Shown one piece after another: positions 9,361 through 41,928 of a stretch of 64,000 nucleotides of DNA. The stretch lies in NCBI GenBank assembly GCA_030431255.1, contig JAUIJL010000001.1, forward strand, positions 930,001 to 994,000, read 5' to 3'. Origin of the DNA: Thermoanaerobaculia bacterium. Its GTDB lineage: Bacteria; Acidobacteriota; Thermoanaerobaculia; Multivoradales; J023. The notes below the pieces were generated by a model that did not search any database, had not been told where the DNA came from, and saw only the letters and a list, made by a program, of their open reading frames with translations. Positions within the stretch are counted from its first letter, which is position 1, and every line of letters starts with the position of its first letter. The translations under genes were made by a program, and so were the position numbers.

Positions 9361-9397
9361 ACAAGGGTGATATCCGTTTGATGGATGTCACCCTTGT
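9361..9397 (+). terminator. 15-bp hairpin between IHF/HU gene and membrane gene
   Basis: The arm at 9361-9375 (ACAAGGGTGATATCC) pairs with 9383-9397 (GGATGTCACCCTTGT), with one G-U wobble and a seven-base loop. Only TGGTTT follows, so this may be a terminator, an attenuator or a protein-binding site. It ends 27 bases before the next start codon. Confidence 0.5.
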
Positions 9398-9424
9398 TGG
9401 TTTCAACTCCAAATCGGAAGAAAT

Positions 9425-9874
9425 ATGGCGAAGCGCTCAAAGTCTGAAAAAGAGGACGAATTCGTCCCGAAGGTCAATCCTTATTTCGCCGCCGCGTTAG
9501 CCTGGCTGATTCCCGGTGGTGGTCACTTTGCGCTTGCTCGCCGCGGTCGGGGCGTCACCTTCTTCGCCATCATCCTGATCTGCTTGGGAATAGGGATTTC
9601 TCTCGAAGGCAGGCTTCCCTGGCAGTTCTCCAACGCGCCGCTGACGACCCTTGCTACCTTTGGCGCTTTGGGAAGCGGCCTGCCGTGCCTGATGCTCCGA
9701 CTGGGATTCGGCTATGAGGGTGATATGACCGCCGCGGGTTACGAATACGGTGGCGCCTTCATCCTCACCGCGGGGCTGATGAATCTGCTGCTGGTTTTGG
9801 ATGCCTGGGATATCGCCTGGGGAAAGGAAGATCGCGTGGCTGAAGATCAAGACGACCCTGAGGAGAGCACTTAG
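9425..9874 (+). CDS. Small multi-pass membrane protein (DUF6677-like)
   Basis: A 149-residue protein with about four hydrophobic segments: residues about 20-38 (AAALAWLIPGGGHFALAR), 45-60, 72-95 and 110-125. A charged N terminus (MAKRSKSEKEDEF) and an acidic C terminus flank them. The short LIPGGGHF motif recalls the DUF6677-type proteins found next to lipid A genes in Acidobacteriota, but this assignment is from memory and the function is unknown. The gene is two bases from the next small membrane gene and precedes lpxB, so a cell envelope role is plausible. Confidence 0.75.
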   Translation: MAKRSKSEKEDEFVPKVNPYFAAALAWLIPGGGHFALARRGRGVTFFAIILICLGIGISLEGRLPWQFSNAPLTTLATFGALGSGLPCLMLRLGFGYEGDMTAAGYEYGGAFILTAGLMNLLLVLDAWDIAWGKEDRVAEDQDDPEEST

Positions 9875-9876
9875 AA

Positions 9877-10071
9877 ATGGCCGATCACGTGCTCCTGATG
9901 TCCCTATATTCCGGGATCGTCAGCCTGTTTTTCGCGGTGCTTTCGCGGCGGGAGAAAGGTGAGCAAATCCGTCTGTTCCTGACCCTCTTTCTCGGGCTCA
10001 TGGGTGGCGGTTTAGCCTTGGCCTGGTTGATGTTTTTCTTCCCATCAGGACCCCCGGCGCCGATTCCTTGA
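9877..10071 (+). CDS. Small two-helix membrane protein
   Basis: A 64-residue protein with two hydrophobic helices (about residues 5-22 and 32-53) joined by a charged turn (SRREKGEQIR). It starts three bases after the preceding stop and its own TGA overlaps the TTG start of lpxB, so it lies within the same transcript. I do not recognise the family. The position suggests an accessory role in envelope or lipid A metabolism, but this is inference. Confidence 0.65.
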   Translation: MADHVLLMSLYSGIVSLFFAVLSRREKGEQIRLFLTLFLGLMGGGLALAWLMFFFPSGPPAPIP

Positions 10072-11243
10072 GCGACATACCGGCAACCGACCTGCTGATG
10101 GTGGCGGGGGAAGCTTCCGGTGACCTTCACGGGGCCCGGCTGCTTTCAGAGCTGAAAAAACGTCTGCCCGAGGTTCGAGCCTTCGGTCTCGGGGGTGATG
10201 AGCTGCAAGGGGAGGGCTTCGAGGCCGTAGCCCACAGCTCTGAAATCGCTGTGGTTGGGATCACGGAGGTCTTGAAAATTCTTCGCCGCGCGCGGGAAAT
10301 CTTCGACTCCATCCTGGCGGAAGTCGATCGGCGGGGGGCGCGCTGGGCCATTCTGATCGACGCCCCGGACTTTAATCTGCGCCTGGCTAACCAGCTCAGA
10401 AAGCGGGGAGTGCGGGTGATCTACTACATCAGCCCGCAGGTGTGGGCTTGGCGGAAGCGTCGAATCCACGCCATTGCCCGAGATGTGGATCTCATGTTGG
10501 TGCTCTTTCCGTTCGAAAAAGACTTCTATCGAAACCACGACGTCGACGTCCGCCACGTGGGGCACCCCCTGGTCGATGAGGTCCCGCGGCTCGAGCAGGC
10601 CTGGGATCGAGAATCTCGAGGGGAAGGGCCGTCCCTAGCACCGACACTGGCCCTGCTGCCGGGATCGCGGCGAAGTGAAATCAACGCTCTCCTACCTTGG
10701 ATGCTCGAGGCGGTGTCCCAGGTGGGGTCGCGGCGACCGGACGGTTTGAAGTGTCGGTTGATTCAGGCGCCGAACATCCCAGACCAGCTTTTCGATCAGA
10801 TCCTCGCCGGCTCCCGAATCGCCGAGTGCGGCGTTGAGGTCGAACGGATTCGATCCAATCGCTTCCAAGCCATTGCCGACAGCCACTTGGCGGTCTGTGC
10901 CTCGGGCACCGCCACATTGGAGGTGGCTTTGCTCAACACCCCTTTGTTGGTGATGTACCGCCTCAAGTGGACGAGCTACGTGCTGGGCAAGCTGTTGGTC
11001 GATTTGCCCTATTTCTGCATGGTGAATTTGGTGCTCGATCGCGGCGTGGTTCCCGAGCTCTTGCAGGGAGAGGCTCGACCCGAGAAAGTCGCCGCCCAGA
11101 TTGAGCAGCTCCTCGGCTCGCCGGACACCATTCACAGCATGCGCCGAGAGCTGGCGATGCTGCGTCCAGCGCTGGGCAGCTCCGGGGCCAGCGGCCGAGC
11201 CGCGGAAGCCGTTGCGGAGCGTATCCGAGAGGTAAGCTCGTGA
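10068..11243 (+). CDS. lpxB: Lipid-A-disaccharide synthase
   Basis: LpxB joins UDP-diacylglucosamine and lipid X to form the lipid A disaccharide at the inner membrane. The VAGEASGDLHGARL motif near the N terminus, YYISPQVWAWRKRR, the VGHPLVDE segment and LLPGSRRSEI are family hallmarks, and 391 residues is normal length. The start is a TTG at 10068 overlapping the previous TGA (TTGA); an ATG at 10098 would begin at MVAGEASG and is the alternative. Its stop overlaps the GTG start of the ABC exporter, linking synthesis and export of lipid A. Confidence 0.93.
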   Translation: MSDIPATDLLMVAGEASGDLHGARLLSELKKRLPEVRAFGLGGDELQGEGFEAVAHSSEIAVVGITEVLKILRRAREIFDSILAEVDRRGARWAILIDAPDFNLRLANQLRKRGVRVIYYISPQVWAWRKRRIHAIARDVDLMLVLFPFEKDFYRNHDVDVRHVGHPLVDEVPRLEQAWDRESRGEGPSLAPTLALLPGSRRSEINALLPWMLEAVSQVGSRRPDGLKCRLIQAPNIPDQLFDQILAGSRIAECGVEVERIRSNRFQAIADSHLAVCASGTATLEVALLNTPLLVMYRLKWTSYVLGKLLVDLPYFCMVNLVLDRGVVPELLQGEARPEKVAAQIEQLLGSPDTIHSMRRELAMLRPALGSSGASGRAAEAVAERIREVSS

Positions 11244-35198: not shown

Positions 35199-35233
35199 CT
35201 TGATGTCGGGTCCCGAATCGAGGCCGCGTCGCC

Positions 35234-35325
35234 GGCCGGAGGCTATCGCCCCGCTGCGGCTCTGGCCGGAGGCTATCGCCTCCGCTGCGGCTCTGGCCGG
35301 AGGCTATCGCCTCCGCTTGGCTCTT
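35234..35325. repeat. Three tandem 31-bp palindromic (REP-like) repeats
   Basis: Three contiguous units begin at 35234, 35264 and 35295, each starting GGCCGGAGGCTATCGCC and continuing through CCGCTGCGGCTCT or a close variant. Units 2 and 3 contain the hairpin GGAGGC-TATC-GCCTCC; unit 1 lacks one T. They lie just beyond the stop codon of the ferredoxin gene. Confidence 0.9.
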
Positions 35326-35342: not shown

Positions 35343-35603
35343 TCAGTCCGGCGGATCGAGCTCGAAATGAGTGTAGTTCTCAGCGGTGAAGGCCGCCCAT
35401 TTCTCGGGGACCTCCTCCTCGGGGAAGATAGCCTCCACCGGACAAGCGTCGACGCAGAGCCCACAATCGATGCATTCTTCCGGGTGAATATACAGCTGCT
35501 TCCAGTCATCTTCATCCGCACCGTAGATGCAGTCCACGGGACATACATCCACACAGGCGGTGTCTTTTACGTCGATACAAGGCTCGGCGATGATATGGGT
35601 CAC
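35343..35603 (-). CDS. fdxA: 7Fe-type ferredoxin (FdxA-like)
   Basis: An 86-residue electron carrier with two iron-sulfur clusters. The first ligand set is spaced C-x7-C-x3-C-x3-C (EPCIDVKDTACVDVCPVDCI), which fits the mixed 3Fe/4Fe ferredoxins, and the second is the standard CIDCGLCVDACP. I chose a GTG at 35603 because AAGGAG lies nine bases upstream and MTHIIAEPC is the usual FdxA start; an ATG at 35657 adds 18 residues but has no ribosome site. TATACT on the minus strand at 35676-35671 would place the transcript start near 35664, leaving a leader of about 60 bases. The electron partner is unknown. Confidence 0.9.
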   Translation of the reverse strand: MTHIIAEPCIDVKDTACVDVCPVDCIYGADEDDWKQLYIHPEECIDCGLCVDACPVEAIFPEEEVPEKWAAFTAENYTHFELDPPD

Positions 35604-35770
35604 GGGGTTGAGCTCCTTCAGCAGTGACGAAGCATCGTCAGGGAAGACAAGGTTCATCCGAACGGGCGAGAGTATATACCAAAGCCCGGCTCGGGGAGGG
35701 GGGCGGCGTGGGTGGATTGAGCATTCATCCCACTCTTAGATTTCGGTCACGGCGTTTCTTTCCACGCATT

Positions 35771-35785
35771 CGTCGCGGAGCGGCG
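35771..35785. promoter_or_regulatory. Palindromic operator-like site 1 (imperfect)
   Basis: CGTCGC-GGA-GCGGCG resembles the TGCCGC-N3-GCGGCA motif with one mispair, and lies just upstream of the lysE -10 element. Confidence 0.4.
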
Positions 35786-35792
35786 AATGTGC

Positions 35793-35798
35793 TACGAT
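35793..35798 (+). promoter_or_regulatory. Candidate extended -10 of lysE
   Basis: TACGAT is preceded by TGC; no good -35 box is visible. Transcription would start near 35805, immediately before operator-like site 2. Confidence 0.4.
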
Positions 35799-35808
35799 TT
35801 TCGCATTA

Positions 35809-35823
35809 CGCCGCAGCGCGGCG
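35809..35823. promoter_or_regulatory. Palindromic operator-like site 2
   Basis: CGCCGC-AGC-GCGGCG is a perfect 6-N3-6 inverted repeat at about +4 to +18 of the predicted lysE transcript. Confidence 0.55.
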
Positions 35824-35911
35824 AAAACATCGGCCGTCATCCGCCGGCCATCGGCACCTCAATCTGTGACATTTAGCCTTTGATCTCTCATCGGATGGAG
35901 CGACATCTGCG

Positions 35912-36553
35912 ATGGAGTACCTCGTTATCGGCCTCGGTTTGGGACTCGCCGCGGGTTTCAGCCCTGGTCCTCTTCTGACTCTGGTGCTGACGGCGACTCT
36001 ACAACGGGGCGTCTGGTCCGGGATCCGTGTGGCCTCCGCTCCTCTGCTGACCGATCTACCGATCGTCGTGACGGCGATTTGGCTGGCAAGCTCCATTCCC
36101 GGTTGGACCCTCAACGGCCTGTCACTGGTCGGTGGTCTATTCGTGGCCTTTCTCGGAATCGTTACTTGGCGAGATGCCGGCGGGGCTCGATTGGACGCCG
36201 AGGAGAGCCAGGAGGGATCTGTGAGCAAAGATCTACTCGCCGGTGCTTTGGTCAATGTGTTGAGCCCCCATCCCTGGTTGTTCTGGGTGGGTATCGGGGC
36301 GCCCCGGGTGGTCGAGCTGCAACGGGGTGCCGGTTTGAAGTGGGCGTTGGCCTTCTTGGCCCTCTTCTACGCTGGTTTGGTGGGCAGCAAAATTCTCCTG
36401 GCCGTGGGCGTGGCCGGCGGCCGACACATCCTCAGCGACGCTTGGTATCGCCGGATTCTATGGGCCTGCGGAGCGCTGCTGATCGGGCTGGGCCTTTGGC
36501 TGGGCTTCGATGGGGCTAAAGGTTTGGCCGACCACTTCTCCGCGGGCCCATGA
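35912..36553 (+). CDS. LysE-family exporter
   Basis: A 213-residue integral membrane protein with about six hydrophobic helices. The N-terminal half carries GLAAGFSPGPLLTLVL, the family's characteristic Gly and Pro-rich first helix, and the second half has the NVLSPHPWLFWVGIGAP motif that recalls the NPKAxxF segment of LysE/RhtB exporters. A charged cytoplasmic loop (DAEESQEGSVSKD) separates the halves. Members export amino acids or other small metabolites; the substrate is unknown. It is followed by two ArsA-like genes after 61 bases and may share their transcript. Confidence 0.85.
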   Translation: MEYLVIGLGLGLAAGFSPGPLLTLVLTATLQRGVWSGIRVASAPLLTDLPIVVTAIWLASSIPGWTLNGLSLVGGLFVAFLGIVTWRDAGGARLDAEESQEGSVSKDLLAGALVNVLSPHPWLFWVGIGAPRVVELQRGAGLKWALAFLALFYAGLVGSKILLAVGVAGGRHILSDAWYRRILWACGALLIGLGLWLGFDGAKGLADHFSAGP

Positions 36554-36614
36554 TGTCCGCGCCGACACACTCATCCTAAATACTGACTCACCCAAATAGG
36601 GACTGAGCGACTCT

Positions 36615-37634
36615 ATGAACGAGGCAATTGAACGCTTGGCAAATCGCCGGCTAATTGTGGTCACCGGCAAGGGCGGCGTCGGCAAAAGTGCTATGACCGC
36701 TGCCCTCGGGCGTGTGCTTTCCGGTCTGGGACGTCGGACGCTCGTGCTCGAGGTCGACCCCAGGGAGAACCTTCATCAGCTTCTCGACGTCGCACCCTCC
36801 GGGGGAGAGATCAGCTCGGTGGACGAGCATCTTTGGTTGCAGAACCTCAAACCGATTCGAGTGGTCGATTGGGTAGTGCGGCGTCAGGTCAAAGTGGAGA
36901 TGGTAGCTCAGAGAGTGCTCAAGAGCCCGGTCTATCATCGGTTCGTCGAGGGGGCGCCGGGGCTGCGGGAGATGGCGATTCTGGGTCATGCCCTGCGGTT
37001 GGTCCGTGGGGACGCCAAGGGCGCTCCCGAGATCGACACGGTGATCCTCGACGCACCGGCCACGGGTCACGGCATCTATTTGCTCACCGCAGCCCGGCTC
37101 TACGCCGAGGCCATCGGCGATGGACCTTTCTCCAAGCTGGCGGGGGAGATCGCGGATTTTGCCTCCGACCCGGATGCGACCTCGGTGGTGTTGGTGACCT
37201 CCGCCGAAGAGATGCCGGTCCAGGAAGCGTTGGAAATGCGCGAGGACTTGGAGAAGAAATTCGATCGAGGCCCCGATCTGCTGGTGGTCAACAGCGTGTA
37301 TCCGCCCCTGCCTGAGGTCTCCGAAGACGAGGTCTCCGACGAAGACAAGGTCTCCGAAGACGCGGAGTCGACCCTCGGTGACGAGCGGGCCCGTTTGGTG
37401 GGACTGTGGCGTCGGCGCCGGGCGGTCAACGAGCGGGAGCTCGCTCGGGTGCGCCGGGAGTGGCTCGGTCCGGCGGTGCAGCTGCCCCTGCTGCCGATGG
37501 ATCGGGCTTCGGCTTTGATCCAACGACTGGCAGGCATGTTGAGCGAGGCCGCGGATCTTTCCGGGTCCGCCGGACCTGCCGGCTTTGTTGGACGTGAAGA
37601 AACCCCTTTGGAGGAAGGTGATCATGCCGGCTGA
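36615..37634 (+). CDS. ArsA/Get3-like ATPase, subunit 1 (signature lysine present)
   Basis: A 339-residue member of the ArsA/Get3/MinD-type deviant Walker ATPases, which act as dimers that change shape with ATP. The P-loop reads VVTGKGGVGKSAMTAALG at about residue 15, with the signature Lys two places after the T-G. Switch regions EVDPRENLHQLL and ILDAPATGHGIYLL follow. An acidic insert lies near residues 235-255. No arsenite pump gene is nearby, so arsenic export is unlikely; Get3-type handling of hydrophobic proteins is an alternative. It overlaps the second ATPase gene by 11 bases, which suggests the two products form a pair. Confidence 0.88.
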   Translation: MNEAIERLANRRLIVVTGKGGVGKSAMTAALGRVLSGLGRRTLVLEVDPRENLHQLLDVAPSGGEISSVDEHLWLQNLKPIRVVDWVVRRQVKVEMVAQRVLKSPVYHRFVEGAPGLREMAILGHALRLVRGDAKGAPEIDTVILDAPATGHGIYLLTAARLYAEAIGDGPFSKLAGEIADFASDPDATSVVLVTSAEEMPVQEALEMREDLEKKFDRGPDLLVVNSVYPPLPEVSEDEVSDEDKVSEDAESTLGDERARLVGLWRRRRAVNERELARVRREWLGPAVQLPLLPMDRASALIQRLAGMLSEAADLSGSAGPAGFVGREETPLEEGDHAG

Positions 37635-38721
37635 ATCCAAGGGATCGTTTCGCGAGCGACTGGATCTGGCAAGCAGCTCCCCGCCGCTCGTCATCGTCGT
37701 CGGCAGCGGAGGAGTCGGCAAAACCACTCTCGCTGCCGCCATGGGTGTGGCGTCCGCCGAGGCCGGAGTAGACAGCCTGGTGATGACTTTCGATCCGTCC
37801 CTTCGTTTGAAGGATGCCCTAGGGGTCGAAAAGGCGGACGACGATGGAGAGATCAAGGTTCCCGGGGCCCGAGGGGAGCTTTACGCGGGTTTGTTGGACG
37901 CGCGCCGCACCTTTGATCGTTTGGTCGCCCGCTACGCGCCGGATGCAGAATCCCGCCGCCGCATATTAGAAAATCCCTACTACCGTCATCTGGCCGGCCA
38001 CCTCGGTGGCATTCTCGAATATATGGCCGTGGAGCGTCTCTACGAGGTGTCGGAAGAAGGTCGATTCAGCCGCATCATCCTCGACACGCCACCGACCGCC
38101 CAGGCGATCGATTTTCTCGAAGCTCCGGATCGGGTCAGCAGCTTCTTGGACAGCGGAGCGTTGAAAATCGCCCTTCGCCCGTGGTTTGACGGCCGTGGGC
38201 GGCTGAAGGTCTCCAAAGGCATGGGTTTTGTCGGCCGGGGTCTCGAAAGCTTCCTCGATCGGGTAGTGGGCATGGAGCTGCTGCGGGATATGTCGGAATT
38301 CTTCCGGGCATTTGAGCCGCTATTCGATGGATTTCGCGAGCGCGCCGTCAAGGTTCGCGAAATGTTGGCGTCGAAGAACGCCCTCTTCGTGCTGGTCACA
38401 GGGCCCGGTGAGTCGCGAATTGCCGACACCTTGTTCTTTGCCCGCAGGCTGCGTGAGGGTGGACACCGGCTGGGACCGATTATCGTCAATAGGCTGCATC
38501 CGAGCTTCGATGTGGAGATCCATGATGAGAGCCCGCTGGCCGCCGGGGAAGAGCTTTTTGCTTGGTTGGGCCGCAGCCATCAACGAGGTCTCGACGAGCT
38601 TCGGAGACTCTTGCCGGCCGACCAGCAGCTCATCGGTTTGCCCGTGGAGCCGGACGAGCCGACGAGCTTGCAGGATCTCGGGGCGATGGGGCAGCGGCTC
38701 TCTCGGCGGATGCTCGCCTAG
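37624..38721 (+). CDS. ArsA/Get3-like ATPase, subunit 2 (signature lysine missing)
   Basis: A 365-residue ATPase of the same superfamily but clearly divergent from its neighbour. Its P-loop is VVGSGGVGKTTLAAAMG, so the catalytic Lys is kept while the inter-subunit signature Lys is replaced by Ser. Switch II reads ILDTPPTAQAIDFLEAPD. A long helical region (about residues 195-260) replaces the tail-anchor binding part of Get3. I chose the ATG at 37624 because GGAGGAAGG precedes it; an earlier ATG at 37585 lies inside the upstream gene. The pairing with a Lys-containing partner suggests a heterodimer with unequal sites. Confidence 0.88.
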   Translation: MPAESKGSFRERLDLASSSPPLVIVVGSGGVGKTTLAAAMGVASAEAGVDSLVMTFDPSLRLKDALGVEKADDDGEIKVPGARGELYAGLLDARRTFDRLVARYAPDAESRRRILENPYYRHLAGHLGGILEYMAVERLYEVSEEGRFSRIILDTPPTAQAIDFLEAPDRVSSFLDSGALKIALRPWFDGRGRLKVSKGMGFVGRGLESFLDRVVGMELLRDMSEFFRAFEPLFDGFRERAVKVREMLASKNALFVLVTGPGESRIADTLFFARRLREGGHRLGPIIVNRLHPSFDVEIHDESPLAAGEELFAWLGRSHQRGLDELRRLLPADQQLIGLPVEPDEPTSLQDLGAMGQRLSRRMLA

Positions 38722-38785
38722 GGAAACGGCTCCGAGCAATAGCTCGCAGCAAGAGGACGGTCGGATCGAGCTTTGAGCTCAGCTC

Positions 38786-38800
38786 TGCCGCGTTGCGGCG
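38786..38800. promoter_or_regulatory. Palindromic operator-like site 3
   Basis: TGCCGC-GTT-GCGGCG, one end base mispaired, 65 bases after the ATPase 2 stop. Confidence 0.5.
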
Positions 38801-38890
38801 GAAGGCTCGAGCTGATGGACCCAGTCTCGGGCGAGCTTGGTCTAGAGAGGACCCGAGCCGGGAAGAGCGCAGATTTATCGAGAGAGTTTT

Positions 38891-38905
38891 TGCCGCAGCG
38901 CGTCA
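38891..38905. promoter_or_regulatory. Palindromic operator-like site 4 (imperfect)
   Basis: TGCCGC-AGC-GCGTCA, one mispair, nine bases upstream of the phaR -35 box. Confidence 0.45.
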
Positions 38906-38913
38906 GAAACTTA

Positions 38914-38942
38914 TTGACACCTTTGCCGCAGTGCGGTATCTT
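38914..38942 (+). promoter_or_regulatory. Strong promoter of phaR
   Basis: TTGACA at 38914-38919 and TATCTT at 38937-38942 are 17 bases apart. The transcript would start near 38949 with an 87-base leader. Confidence 0.8.
38924..38938. promoter_or_regulatory. Palindromic operator-like site 5 within the phaR promoter
   Basis: TGCCGC-AGT-GCGGTA fills the spacer between -35 and -10 and touches the -10 box, an ideal position for a repressor. One end pair is mismatched. Confidence 0.6.
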
Positions 38943-38953
38943 TTCTTTGTTGA

Positions 38954-38968
38954 TGCCGCGTGGCGGCA
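38954..38968. promoter_or_regulatory. Palindromic operator-like site 6 (perfect)
   Basis: TGCCGC-GTG-GCGGCA is a perfect 6-N3-6 inverted repeat just downstream of the predicted transcription start. Confidence 0.65.
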
Positions 38969-39035
38969 AGAAAGGCCATCAAAGGAACGATCTCGCCAAA
39001 GATTGTCGCCGCCAGTCAACCATTAGGAGAAAGCA

Positions 39036-39623
39036 ATGATTCGCGTCATCAAACGATACGAGAGCCGAAAGCTCTACGACACTGAAGAAAGCCGTTACAT
39101 TTCCTTAGAGGATATCGCCCGTTGGGTGAGAGACGGTCAAGAGATTCAAGTGGTCGACAACTCCTCCTCCGAGGACGTCACGGCCCAAGTGCTGACCCAA
39201 ATCATCCTCGACGAGGGAAAGAAGGGAACCTCGTTCCTGCCCACCGAGCTTTTGCACGAGCTGGTCAGGGCCGGCGAGCGGGCGGTTTCGTCCGGAGTCG
39301 AGCAAGTCCAAGGCAAGGTCGACAAATTGGTGCAACGGTCCATCGATCGCCTGGCACCCGTGCGTCGGGCCCGAGAGGAGATGTCCCAGCTTCGGGATCG
39401 CCTGTCGCAGTTGGAGAGCACCCTGCACGAGCTGGAGGCGCAGAACGACGAGGCGGATAAGCCCGCACTGAAGCGTCGGGCGAGCGCGGCGAAAGCCCCA
39501 GCGAAGAAAGCGCCCGCTCGAAAGGCGCCGGCCAAGAAAGCCCCCGCCAAGCGGGCGACCCCAAGAAAAACCACCGCCGCCAAAAAGCCGGCAGCGGGAA
39601 CCGAGACCGAATCCAAAGACTGA
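39036..39623 (+). CDS. phaR: Polyhydroxyalkanoate synthesis regulator PhaR with histone H1-like tail
   Basis: PhaR proteins bind both DNA and polyhydroxyalkanoate granules, repressing phasin and their own genes until polymer forms. The N-terminal domain is clear: IRVIKRYESRKLYDTEESRY, then DNSSSEDVTAQVLTQIILDE. Residues about 75-140 form a helical and coiled region. Residues about 145-190 are a Lys, Ala and Pro-rich tail with KAPAKKAPARKAP-like repeats as in bacterial H1-like proteins, which should bind DNA non-specifically. The ATG at 39036 has AGGAGA upstream. Self-regulation is supported by palindromes in its own promoter. Confidence 0.92.
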   Translation: MIRVIKRYESRKLYDTEESRYISLEDIARWVRDGQEIQVVDNSSSEDVTAQVLTQIILDEGKKGTSFLPTELLHELVRAGERAVSSGVEQVQGKVDKLVQRSIDRLAPVRRAREEMSQLRDRLSQLESTLHELEAQNDEADKPALKRRASAAKAPAKKAPARKAPAKKAPAKRATPRKTTAAKKPAAGTETESKD

Positions 39624-39677
39624 AGCCCGCGCTGATCGGCATGGGTTTTAAGGACGCAAGGCGTTCAGGAGCAACAC

Positions 39678-40043
39678 ATGAGCACTCGAGAGCAAATCCA
39701 CGAAGGTGTGAATCGCATCGGACACGACATGAAAGCGGTAAGCCGTAACCTCTGGCTCGCTGGTTTGGGCGCCGTCGGCGCGGCCGACGAAATGGGGCGC
39801 AAGGTCTTTTCCGATTGCGTTCGCCGTGGGGAAGAGGTCGAGGACACTCCAGAGGAGCTGGTTCGGCGTCGTTGGCGACAAGCCACCGGCCGAGTGAAAG
39901 CTCTCGGCGACCGAGTGGAGAGCCGGATCGAGGAAAGCATGTCCGACACCCTCAATCGGTTGGGCGCCCCCGCCCGGCGCGACGTTGAGGAGCTGAGCGA
40001 CCGCTTGGCCGCGCTGACGAAGCACGTTGAAGCCTTGCGCTGA
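39678..40043 (+). CDS. Phasin-like protein 1 (PhaI/PhaF-type)
   Basis: A 121-residue helical protein of the poly-granule-associated phasin family, which coats polyhydroxyalkanoate granules. The amphipathic segment SRNLWLAGLGAVGAADEMG matches the second phasin (KIWLAGLGALSAAEQEG), and the C terminus LSDRLAALTKHVEALR is a coiled coil. It carries more Arg and fewer Lys than its partner and is shorter. AGGAG precedes the ATG by seven bases. The 54-base gap after phaR has no operator-like site, so it is probably co-transcribed with phaR. Confidence 0.8.
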   Translation: MSTREQIHEGVNRIGHDMKAVSRNLWLAGLGAVGAADEMGRKVFSDCVRRGEEVEDTPEELVRRRWRQATGRVKALGDRVESRIEESMSDTLNRLGAPARRDVEELSDRLAALTKHVEALR

Positions 40044-40085
40044 AGAGTCTTTGAAGACGGAGCTACAAAATTGTCGTGGTTGCTA

Positions 40086-40100
40086 TGCCGCGTTTCGGCA
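40086..40100. promoter_or_regulatory. Palindromic operator-like site 7 (imperfect) before phasin 2
   Basis: TGCCGC-GTT-TCGGCA, one mispair, 90 bases before the phasin 2 start. A -10-like TACAAA at 40064-40069 lies just upstream. Confidence 0.5.
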
Positions 40101-40189
40101 GACACAACCCGAAAGACATCACCGAGCCGCCCGGCGTTTGACGCTTCCTGAAGGAAAGGGGCAGCCAGTGAGCAACATAGGAGTAAGTC

Positions 40190-40648
40190 ATGAGCAAGAA
40201 AGATCAAGAGACGACCGAGCAGACCACCATGAAAGATCGGATTCCCGCCGAGATGAAAGAGTCTGCACAGAAGATCTGGTTGGCCGGTCTGGGCGCCTTG
40301 TCCGCGGCTGAGCAAGAGGGCTCCAAGCTCTTCAAGACCCTGGTGGAGAAGGGTGAGAAGTTCGAGAGCCGCGGCAAAGTGGCCTTCACCGACGCCAAAG
40401 AAGACATGACCGACGCGGTCCAGGATGCCCGTTCCAAAGCCGAGTCCACCTGGGACAAAGTCGAAGAGCGTTTGGACGATGTGGTCAGCGGCGCTCTCAA
40501 GCGCTTCGGCGTGCCGAGCCGCGAGGAGATCGCCACCTTGACCCAACGAGTCGAGGAGCTGACCCGGGTGGTCGAAGGGCTGAAACCCGCCGCCCCGGCT
40601 AAGAAAACCGCGAGCCGTACGCCGAAGACCCCCAGCGCTTCCAACTGA
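40190..40648 (+). CDS. Phasin 2 (poly granule-associated protein family)
   Basis: A 152-residue phasin. The conserved segment KIWLAGLGALSAAEQEGSKL is followed by FKTLVEKGEKFESRGK, then a helical middle and the C-terminal coiled coil TQRVEELTRVVEGLK, ending in a short Lys and Ala-rich tail. The family coats PHA granules and controls their size and segregation. AGGAG precedes the ATG. It has its own upstream palindrome, so it may be regulated separately from phaR and phasin 1. No PHA synthase lies in the window. Confidence 0.88.
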   Translation: MSKKDQETTEQTTMKDRIPAEMKESAQKIWLAGLGALSAAEQEGSKLFKTLVEKGEKFESRGKVAFTDAKEDMTDAVQDARSKAESTWDKVEERLDDVVSGALKRFGVPSREEIATLTQRVEELTRVVEGLKPAAPAKKTASRTPKTPSASN

Positions 40649-40668: not shown

Positions 40669-41928
40669 ATGAGCGGTAGAAAGCAAAGAGAGCCTTTGAC
40701 GTCACCTGTCGGCCTAGCGCTGGCAGGTGGCGCTCCCGGTGGCGCCATCTATGAGATAGGTGCGCTTCGGGCGCTGGACGAAGCCTTGGTGGGTTTGGAT
40801 CTGCGGGATTGCGGCTGTTTCGTCGGGGTCAGCGCCGGTGCGTTTCTGACTTCCTGCCTGGCGAACGGTCTTTCCACGGCTCAACAAGTTCGGGCCATTG
40901 TGAAGGATGAGCCGGGTGAGCACCCGTTCGTCCCGGAAACTTTCTTCAAACCCGCTCTGGGAGAGCTGGCCGGACGACTGCTACGGACCCCTAAGCTGCT
41001 GTCCACGGCATTGGGAGATTACGTCAGCCGACGGGAGAAACGCCTGTTGGATGCCCTCACCGTGCTCGGCCAAGCCGTTCCCGTGGGAGTGTTCGACAAC
41101 GACCCGATTCGCGACTACGTGGCTCGGATCTTCTCCATCAAAGGCCGAACCGATGATTTCACCGAGCTGAAGCGGAAGCTGACCGTGGTCGCGACCGACC
41201 TCGAGTCCGGTGAATCCATGCTCTTCGGACACCTGGGGTGGCCCTATGTGCCCATTTCCAAGGCGGTCCAAGCGTCCACCGCATTGCCGGGTTTGTATCC
41301 TCCAGTGAAGATTCAAGGACGCAATTACGTGGACGGCGTTCTGCTGAAGACCATGCACGCCTCCGTGGCTCTCGAAGCTGGGGCTGAGCTGGTCTTTTGC
41401 ATCAATCCGTTGGTGCCGGTCGATACTCGCCAAGCCGAGCAACAAAATTTGTTGCCCGCCGGCGAGGTCACGCGCAGCGGTCTGCCCTCCGTGTTGTCTC
41501 AAACCGTTCGGACCTTGATCCATTCCCGCCTACGCCTCGGCATGCAGACCTACGAGACTCGCTATCCCGACGCGGATGTGGTGTTGATCGAGCCTCCCAC
41601 GGACGATTACGAGGATTTCTTCTCGAATATTTTCAGCTTCTCTTCGCGACGCGCGGTGGTCGAACGGGCCTACGAAGCGACCCGTCAAACCTTGTTGTTG
41701 CGCAAAGACGAGCTGATTCCGTTGCTCGAGCGGTGGGACATCGGTTTGGACGTCGAGTTCCTCGAAGATCCGAATCGCGATATCTGGCGCGGTGTAGGGT
41801 TGCCGGAATTCTCGAAGCATCCGCCGGAAGAACCCACGGTCGCCGAGCTGCGCCTTGAAATTTCCGACATGATCGATCGCATCGAGGCCGTCGCGGATCG
41901 CTTGGCCGCCAAAGGTGCTTCGGCCTAG
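40669..41928 (+). CDS. Patatin-like phospholipase/esterase
   Basis: A 419-residue patatin-fold acyl hydrolase. The oxyanion loop GGAPGGAIYEIGAL, the nucleophile Ser in GVSAG (about residue 55) and the catalytic Asp in YVDGVLLK (about residue 225) make the Ser-Asp dyad. The C-terminal 150 residues are helical and include a coiled coil (LRLEISDMIDRIEAVADRL). It has no signal peptide, so it acts inside the cell. It lies 20 bases after phasin 2. Given its neighbours it might act on the PHA granule surface or its lipids, but patatins mostly cleave phospholipids, and this link is inference. Confidence 0.88.
   Translation: MSGRKQREPLTSPVGLALAGGAPGGAIYEIGALRALDEALVGLDLRDCGCFVGVSAGAFLTSCLANGLSTAQQVRAIVKDEPGEHPFVPETFFKPALGELAGRLLRTPKLLSTALGDYVSRREKRLLDALTVLGQAVPVGVFDNDPIRDYVARIFSIKGRTDDFTELKRKLTVVATDLESGESMLFGHLGWPYVPISKAVQASTALPGLYPPVKIQGRNYVDGVLLKTMHASVALEAGAELVFCINPLVPVDTRQAEQQNLLPAGEVTRSGLPSVLSQTVRTLIHSRLRLGMQTYETRYPDADVVLIEPPTDDYEDFFSNIFSFSSRRAVVERAYEATRQTLLLRKDELIPLLERWDIGLDVEFLEDPNRDIWRGVGLPEFSKHPPEEPTVAELRLEISDMIDRIEAVADRLAAKGASA

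Follow-up and report, generated by a model that had tools for sequence, protein, structure and literature searches.

A PhaR–phasin locus of Thermoanaerobaculia with a variant operator family and a possible role in neutral-lipid storage

The presence of PhaR-type repressors and phasins is usually read as a sign of bioplastic storage. Droplets of wax ester and triacylglycerol made with wax ester synthase/diacylglycerol acyltransferase (WS/DGAT) are known from Rhodococcus and Acinetobacter, and we know of no PhaR-type control of such bacterial droplets. In published work the PhaR operator is given as TG[N]TGC[N]3GCAA in Herbaspirillum and CTGC[N]3GCAG in Rhodobacter sphaeroides (PMC3206438), as YTKNTGCRNYGCANMAR in Ralstonia (PMC12849132) and as a YGCRNYGCR core in Sinorhizobium (PMC12542648), and in Ralstonia PhaR is described as moving from DNA to the nascent granule and returning once phasins cover the granule (PMC12849132, PMC9049629). 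The locus considered here lies in a 64,000-nucleotide stretch of a Thermoanaerobaculia bacterium (contig JAUIJL010000001.1, positions 930,001 to 994,000; hereafter the window), where an original prediction had proposed that a 6-N3-6 inverted repeat, TGCCGC-N3-GCGGCA, marks a PhaR regulon for polyhydroxyalkanoate (PHA) comprising phaR, phasin genes, a lysE gene and genes of ArsA-like ATPases. Comparison with related genomes makes it very probable that a PhaR-type repressor docks at the repeated palindrome, and the reading favored here, with a probability of about 0.6, is that the locus encodes a PhaR–phasin system for neutral-lipid droplets and that the palindromes are its PhaR operators.

Operators of the phaR locus and their conservation

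All seven palindromes of the original prediction are found in the sequence at the coordinates it gave, and they are confined to three gaps, 5' of lysE, 5' of phaR and 5' of phasin 2. Those at 35809..35823 (CGCCGC-AGC-GCGGCG) and 38954..38968 (TGCCGC-GTG-GCGGCA) are perfect, and the remaining five have one mispair each; none is assigned to a strand. An operator matrix built from 134 phaR-upstream sites of the class, of which four come from the window itself, finds exactly six sites with a score above 9 in the 64 kb, all among the seven. Predicted PhaR operators upstream of phaR are a distal one at 38786..38800 (TGCCGC-GTT-GCGGCG, matrix score 13.7), one 5' of the -35 box at 38891..38905 (TGCCGC-AGC-GCGTCA, 21.0), one filling the promoter spacer at 38924..38938 (TGCCGC-AGT-GCGGTA, 25.4) and the perfect copy at 38954..38968 near the expected transcription start (17.8). 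A further one is predicted 5' of phasin 2 at 40086..40100 (TGCCGC-GTT-TCGGCA, 17.8), and the perfect copy at 35809..35823, 5' of lysE-arsA1-arsA2, scores 13.4. The palindrome at 35771..35785 (CGTCGC-GGA-GCGGCG) was rejected because of its score of 2.8 and is probably no operator. As judged by sequence, six of the seven palindromes belong to one predicted operator family, with 35771 outside it.

As a bare pattern the motif hardly stands out. At two or fewer mismatches the window holds 13 matches against 8.35 ± 2.54 expected, a number reached by 6 of 100 shuffles, and at one mismatch or fewer the 15-mer occurs at 84 places genome-wide against 97 for the reversed pattern. All five window matches at one mismatch or fewer fall within the phaR and phasin-2 gaps. 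Since the bare 15-mer shows no genome-wide excess, conservation in relatives and the matrix were used instead.

The comparison set consists of 148 genomes of one class, including the window's own, and 101 of them contain the PHB_acc_N domain. The phaR regions of 60 other genomes were taken, so that with the window 61 of the 101 are covered, and they were split by PhaR sequence into 54 window-type regions (families f1–f6, f8, f9 and f12–f14) and seven of families f7 and f17. Between positions -360 and -20 of phaR, 53 of the 54 window-type regions contain the motif at one mismatch or fewer (134 sites), and without the window, from which the motif was derived, 130 sites remain in 52 of 53 regions. 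The single region without the motif (L080) is the first paralog scored in genome G035, whose second phaR paralog has three motif sites within about 125 nt upstream. The seven f7 and f17 regions have no window-type motif in the same interval. Forty permuted half-site motifs give 0.275 matches at phaR on average and never more than 4, against the 134 real ones, and when the spacer is varied from 0 to 8, N3 gives 134 sites and every other spacer at most 5. The background beyond -3000 to +2500 of the phaR loci amounts to 11 sites in 330,147 bp. An excess over chance is shown by position and by conservation across genomes, and not by the bare counts.

Neighboring operators are spaced by 30–34 bp in 58 of 81 intervals, about three helical turns. 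In 49 of the 54 window-type regions an operator fills the spacer between the -35 and -10 boxes of the phaR promoter; these promoters have a TTGA[CG]-type -35 box and a -10 box starting with [TC]A, separated by 17 or 18 bp (15 bp in one case). The spacer operator has a constant GCGGTA end because it reaches two bases into the -10 box. The window has the same layout: its phaR promoter, TTGACA-17-TATCTT (38914-38942, plus strand), encloses the 38924 site, in agreement with the original prediction. The further proposal that other sites sit just after predicted starts was not reproduced, the promoter at 38914-38942 being the sole promoter-like match in 35640-40200. An operator within the promoter spacer is, on sequence grounds, a repression layout, and its recurrence in 49 of 54 regions makes autorepression by PhaR the best reading. 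Sites are found at phaR's own promoter and at phasin promoters, in 53 of 54 regions and at detached phasins. Class-wide conservation therefore strongly supports the predicted role of PhaR as the binder, its autoregulation and its control of phasins.

A second model (R1), built from 59 phaR-upstream sites of relatives only, has its best match in the window's own genome at the 38924 site (E 0.0285). The phaR promoter ranks first in six of the seven genomes of the family, and in the seventh (G022) a detached phasin, whose promoter has three sites, takes first place. Matches outside the window in its own genome have E values of 0.2–9, and many of them must be chance.

Perfect operator copies also occur about 0.9–1.2 kb upstream of phaR in three relatives (L088 at -1235, L068 at -1082 and L085 at -891). 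They apparently lie inside or at the edge of neighboring genes and are possible looping sites. Three distant phaR loci, from a Deltaproteobacterium, a member of Myxococcaceae and a member of Anaerolineae (L025–L027), have no window-type site; one YGCRNYGCR-like site was found among them, upstream of L025 only.

The repressor and its DNA-specificity variant

The phaR gene (39036..39623, plus strand) encodes a PhaR-type repressor with a PHB_acc_N domain (PF07879, E 1.5e-26, 92.7 bits against a cut-off of 25) and a Lys/Ala-rich tail; with the equivalog model TIGR01848 the protein reaches 93.1 bits, below the cut-off of 109.45. The original prediction had given a CTGC-N3-GCAG palindrome for alphaproteobacterial PhaR. 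This form is in print for R. sphaeroides (PMC3206438), but the inner triplets here are CGC and GCG instead. The TGC-N3-GCA core is absent from the window sites, which have CGC-N3-GCG in all seven bar one TCG half, and the looser YGCRNYGCR core (PMC12542648) fits four of the seven. The window-type operator retains the outer TG and CA and mostly an R-N-Y center, and its inner triplets are fixed as CGC and GCG. Sequence comparison thus identifies the predicted window operator as a variant of the published TGC-N3-GCA with one base changed per half-site. Since C is tolerated at that position in Sinorhizobium, it is a shifted variant rather than a new motif class.

Operator type co-varies with the N-terminus of PhaR across the class. 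In all 21 short f7 loci there is a site within two mismatches of TGCTGC-N3-GCAGCA, and a window-type site is present in none of them; in one long f7 region (L104), no TGC-N3-GCA turns up within 420 nt. Among the f17 loci, G140 carries two perfect sites of classical type and G142 a single one with two mismatches, whereas three further loci carry neither. The PhaR proteins of f7 and f17 read K-Y-x-N-R-R-L-Y-D-T, and those of the window type read K-R-Y-E/G-S-R-K-L/M-Y-D-T-E-E-S. In a structure model of PhaR, residue blocks 1–60 of the N-terminal domain have a pLDDT (predicted local distance difference test) of 88–92, and the loop that joins strands 1 and 2 contains residues 8–12. A Foldseek search of this model against the PDB gave nothing at E ≤ 0.001, and a search by sequence found no solved homologue.

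The C-terminal tail of PhaR (39480-39620) is a Lys/Ala/Pro repeat resembling histone H1 and HC2, with PF07382 and the NCBIfam HC2 model below cut-off. A second PHB_acc_N protein of the window's own genome (G000:C49:34988-35167, L017) carries the NRRLYD signature, and no operators were found upstream of its gene.

Storage polymer or neutral lipid

The window encodes two PF05597 proteins, as a PHA storage system would: phasin 1 (39678..40043, plus strand, E 6.5e-21) and phasin 2 (40190..40648, plus strand, E 6.7e-37; TIGR01837 101.9 bits, over the cut-off of 94.7). The name PHA regulon given by the original prediction is nevertheless not supported, since no PHA synthase (PhaC; PF07167, TIGR01836) was matched at E ≤ 0.001 in the window's own genome, which is 98.8% complete in 54 contigs. 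TIGR01836 has matches in 31 of the 148 class genomes, of which 26 are confident (E<1e-40), namely 24 in f7, G096 and G140; five weak or short matches (G141 9e-9, G036 2e-6, and G047, G104 and G012 4e-4 to 9e-4) were left uncounted. PF07167 finds 25 of the 148, comprising G140 and the 24 f7 genomes. Among the 65 PhaR-positive genomes outside f7 and f17, in 54 of which the PhaR sequence was inspected, a confident PhaC is present in one (G096). With no synthase found in the window's genome and PhaC in 1 of these 65, PHA regulon is a poor name here.

WS/DGAT (PF03007) is present at two loci of the window's own genome, the copy on contig C45 scoring 472.2 bits with TIGR02946 (cut-off 309.95). It occurs in 84 of the 148 class genomes, in 79 of 101 PhaR-positive against 5 of 47 PhaR-negative ones; because the genomes are related, the Fisher p of 3e-15 for this co-occurrence is not a probability of independence. 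Outside f7 and f17, 51 of the 65 PhaR-positive genomes have it. WS/DGAT is linked to phaR, or shares operators with phaR or a phasin gene, in three related families. Four f13 genomes (G097, G104, G105 and G106) have divergent phasin–WS/DGAT pairs with 4–5 matrix sites of at least 8 in the region upstream of WS/DGAT, the majority lying between WS/DGAT and the conserved part of the phasin; start codons were assigned in this analysis, and some mechanical phasin frames overlap part of the operators. In G116 (f14) WS/DGAT is divergent from phaR with the phaR operators in between. In G029 (f2) phaR, two phasin genes, a patatin gene and WS/DGAT follow on one strand, the listed patatin and WS/DGAT frames being separated by 32 nt, and G030 and G034 (f2) have the same gene order and strand with about 1 kb between patatin and WS/DGAT. 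A confident PhaC was found in none of these eight genomes, with a marginal 46-position match in G104.

From these patterns we infer a regulatory cycle by analogy with Ralstonia. PhaR, presumably as a dimer, would bind several 15-bp palindromes, one of them lodged between the -35 and -10 boxes, and would thereby repress its own gene and the phasin genes, together with the arsA operon in some lineages. As an inclusion grows, its hydrophobic surface would draw PhaR off the DNA and relieve repression, which would return once phasins coat that surface. Since a PHA synthase is missing, the inclusion in this lineage is most likely not PHA and would most likely be a wax ester/triacylglycerol droplet made by WS/DGAT. 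Patatin and other lipases would mobilize the droplet lipid, and the Get3/ArsA-like ATPases would perhaps handle hydrophobic proteins. The GA14 phasin of Rhodococcus ruber has also been isolated from lipid inclusions (PMC5658603), which provides a precedent for the binding of phasins to droplets. A broader proposal has about an even chance of being right, namely that the Thermoanaerobaculia PhaR–phasin circuit was uncoupled from bioplastic and re-used as a surface switch of neutral-lipid droplets, with a concerted change in DNA specificity (TGC to CGC in the operator; N-R-R to S-R-K in PhaR) and with the Get3/ArsA-like ATPase pair as an added droplet- or membrane-protein module. In a search of titles and abstract openings of the open-access literature, no tie between PhaR and WS/DGAT and no description of Thermoanaerobaculia phasins were found; one paper reports a putative phasin on a single pseudomonadotal scaffold with WS/DGAT and describes the storage of neutral lipids in Acidobacteriota as unexplored (PMC10351704).

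Several observations weigh against the droplet reading. G096 combines window-type operators with PhaC (E 3e-72), and the window's own genome may contain a synthase unlike known PhaC. WS/DGAT was not detected in 14 of the 65 genomes, nine of them at least 90% complete (e.g. G099, 99%), and so it is no obligate partner of PhaR; in the PhaC-positive f7 it is present in 24 of 24 genomes, and so PhaC and WS/DGAT are not exclusive. In a scan of 65 WS/DGAT regions of 49 genomes, two of them with less than 700 nt upstream, a matrix site of at least 8 lies within 1.5 kb upstream in nine, and clear operator clusters occur at only five (four f13, one f14). The C45 WS/DGAT of the window's own genome follows an alpha/beta-hydrolase gene with two weak sites upstream (12.5 and 13.1), the corresponding operon of G026, a genome of the same genus, has zero matrix sites, and so has the second own copy. 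The sites of this operon, being weak and absent in G026, are not relied on, and the link between WS/DGAT and the operators is weak in the window's own genome. In addition, operator type and PhaR type both follow family, so that their co-variation may be one event.

The alternative that survives best, although unlikely, is that PhaR is the binder in a fatty-acid or carbon-overflow circuit without a dedicated inclusion, sensing a small molecule or membrane lipid, and that the phasin-like proteins serve as membrane or chaperone proteins. The nine nearly complete genomes without detected WS/DGAT are in agreement with this, as are candidate targets such as acyl-CoA dehydrogenases, an aldehyde-dehydrogenase-like gene and citrate synthase, and the Sinorhizobium PhaR regulon reaches beyond polyhydroxybutyrate (PMC12542648). 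However, operator density is highest at the phasin and phaR promoters, and eight loci from three families have WS/DGAT either at these operators or within the phaR locus. Hardly less plausible, and equally doubtful, is an ordinary PhaR-controlled PHA regulon whose synthase was missed through incomplete assembly or divergence. Elsewhere PhaR and phasins are hallmark proteins of PHA granules, the assembly consists of 54 contigs, and divergent synthases exist, since the f7 PhaCs match PF07167 over about the last 57 of 173 positions only. Yet TIGR01836 detects most f7 PhaCs at E ~1e-100 and nothing in the window's own genome, and 64 of the 65 PhaR-positive genomes outside f7 and f17 lack a confident PhaC, which argues that missing contigs are not the reason.

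It is improbable that another regulator, for example of the TetR family, binds the palindromes and that phaR is merely one of its targets: a TetR gene in G026 does have two strong sites, but operator type tracks PhaR type across the class, the layout and R-N-Y center agree with published PhaR sites, and the phaR promoter scores highest in six of the seven family genomes. Chance palindromes of a GC-rich genome, to which the background-level genome count and the barely raised window count would point, are contradicted by the motif's conservation in other genomes (52 of 53 regions), set against permuted-motif controls, and can be set aside.

If the droplet reading is true, the inference from PhaR and phasins to bioplastic is unsafe for most PhaR-bearing genomes of the class examined, and the lineage would provide a droplet-coat system in bacteria that carries its own sensor and can be tested. 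The contrast between f7 and the other families would then be a natural pair for studying how a repressor changes its DNA specificity.

Neighboring genes and known systems

Downstream of the phasin genes lies a gene for a patatin-like lipase/phospholipase (40669..41928, plus strand; PF01734, E 3.2e-21), and a patatin match follows phaR in 43 of the 54 window-type regions. Upstream of phaR are three plus-strand genes, for a LysE-type translocator (35912..36553; PF01810, E 5.3e-15) and for two ArsA/Get3-like ATPases, arsA1 (36615..37634; PF02374, E 6.4e-25) and arsA2 (37624..38721; PF02374, E 5.1e-21). The proposal that the LysE exporter joins the regulon fares poorly, with one good site (35809) and a lysE match in the window only, 1 of the 54 window-type regions (38 of the 53 others extend 3.3 kb upstream of phaR and 15 do not); LysE was therefore rejected as a conserved member. 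In f1 the form CGCCGC-N3-GCGGCG occurs before arsA1 in G024 and G026 and before lysE in the window, the G026 copy failing the matrix. Since G026, without a lysE match, has this form before arsA1, the site appears to go with the head of the operon.

The inclusion of the ATPases in the regulon stands for some lineages. Matches to arsA1 are present in 26 of the 54 window-type phaR regions. Of the 23 loci with enough upstream DNA, nine have a matrix site of at least 9 in the 450 nt upstream of arsA1, and these belong to f1 (one), f4, f5, f8 and f9; two of them (f5) use the intergenic region shared with phaR. The tested loci of f2, f3 and f14 have arsA but no such site, and so the link between operator and arsA is lineage-dependent. 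In L025, from a metagenome-assembled genome of Deltaproteobacteria, an ArsA-like ATPase pair (about 9396-11191) starts about 1.4 kb after the phaR start, suggesting that the neighborhood may predate the class.

A ferredoxin gene (35343-35657, minus strand) is divergent from the locus, with a ferredoxin match in 19 of the 54 window-type phaR regions, and 3' of it three imperfect direct copies of a GC-rich unit of about 30 nt (GGCCGGAGGCTATCGCC...) lie at 35223-35324.

Outside the locus, acyl-CoA dehydrogenases are candidate targets in G026 (L250, via a TetR gene, and L265), the sites of the TetR/acyl-CoA dehydrogenase pair being strong in G026 and weak in the window's own genome, where two alpha/beta hydrolases are suggestive candidates. 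An aldehyde-dehydrogenase-like candidate (C53:35827) has a G026 counterpart that also carries a site without mismatch just upstream, and it was set aside because its own site is upstream only if the start codon is later than the first listed. Citrate synthase (C3:129368) has a site without mismatch 231 bp upstream, which lies inside the end of the preceding predicted frame (L242 2832-3515), may be chance and was likewise not accepted; gltA is among the predicted PhaR targets of Sinorhizobium (PMC12542648). An aminotransferase site (C40:43234, score 20.3) recurs in G023, G024 and G025 but was rejected because in those genomes it lies inside a predicted reading frame and so may be conserved coding sequence. 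A lipase of the window's own genome on contig C50 (site score 22.0) was also set aside, since none of the six other family genomes has a full-length relative in which conservation of the site could show. The palindrome AGCCGCAGCGCGGCA recurs in identical form at two places, upstream of a TonB-dependent-receptor-like gene with a Pfam plug domain in the window's own genome (G000:C34:16308, L244) and upstream of a large gene in G025 (G025:C53:245812, L266).

Among known systems, mycobacterial BagA/BagB resembles the ATPase pair in having two adjacent ArsA-type ATPases of the Get3-like kind, and BagA is the best NCBIfam match of arsA1; however, arsA1 reaches only 92 bits against a cut-off of 400, and it stands beside phaR in the 26 regions mentioned above. 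The droplets of Rhodococcus and Acinetobacter share with this lineage WS/DGAT, and also a phasin able to sit on lipid inclusions (R. ruber GA14, PMC5658603). Within the class, the f7 phaR loci with PhaC have operators upstream of phaR as the window does, with phaC near phaR on the same contig in g23, but their operators are of classical type, such as TTGTGCAGTGCAGCA, and the five long f7 regions gave no arsA, phasin or patatin match with the window queries. PhaR/PhbF of Ralstonia eutropha, Herbaspirillum, Rhodobacter and Sinorhizobium (AniA) is like the window system in its PHB_acc_N domain and in several palindromes with a 3-nt center around the -35 and -10 boxes of phaR and phasin genes. The window type differs from it in the fixed CGC and GCG inner triplets, in an N-terminus with ESRK or GSRK rather than NRR, and in a genome without a detected PHA synthase whose relatives link the system to WS/DGAT, patatin or ArsA-like ATPases.

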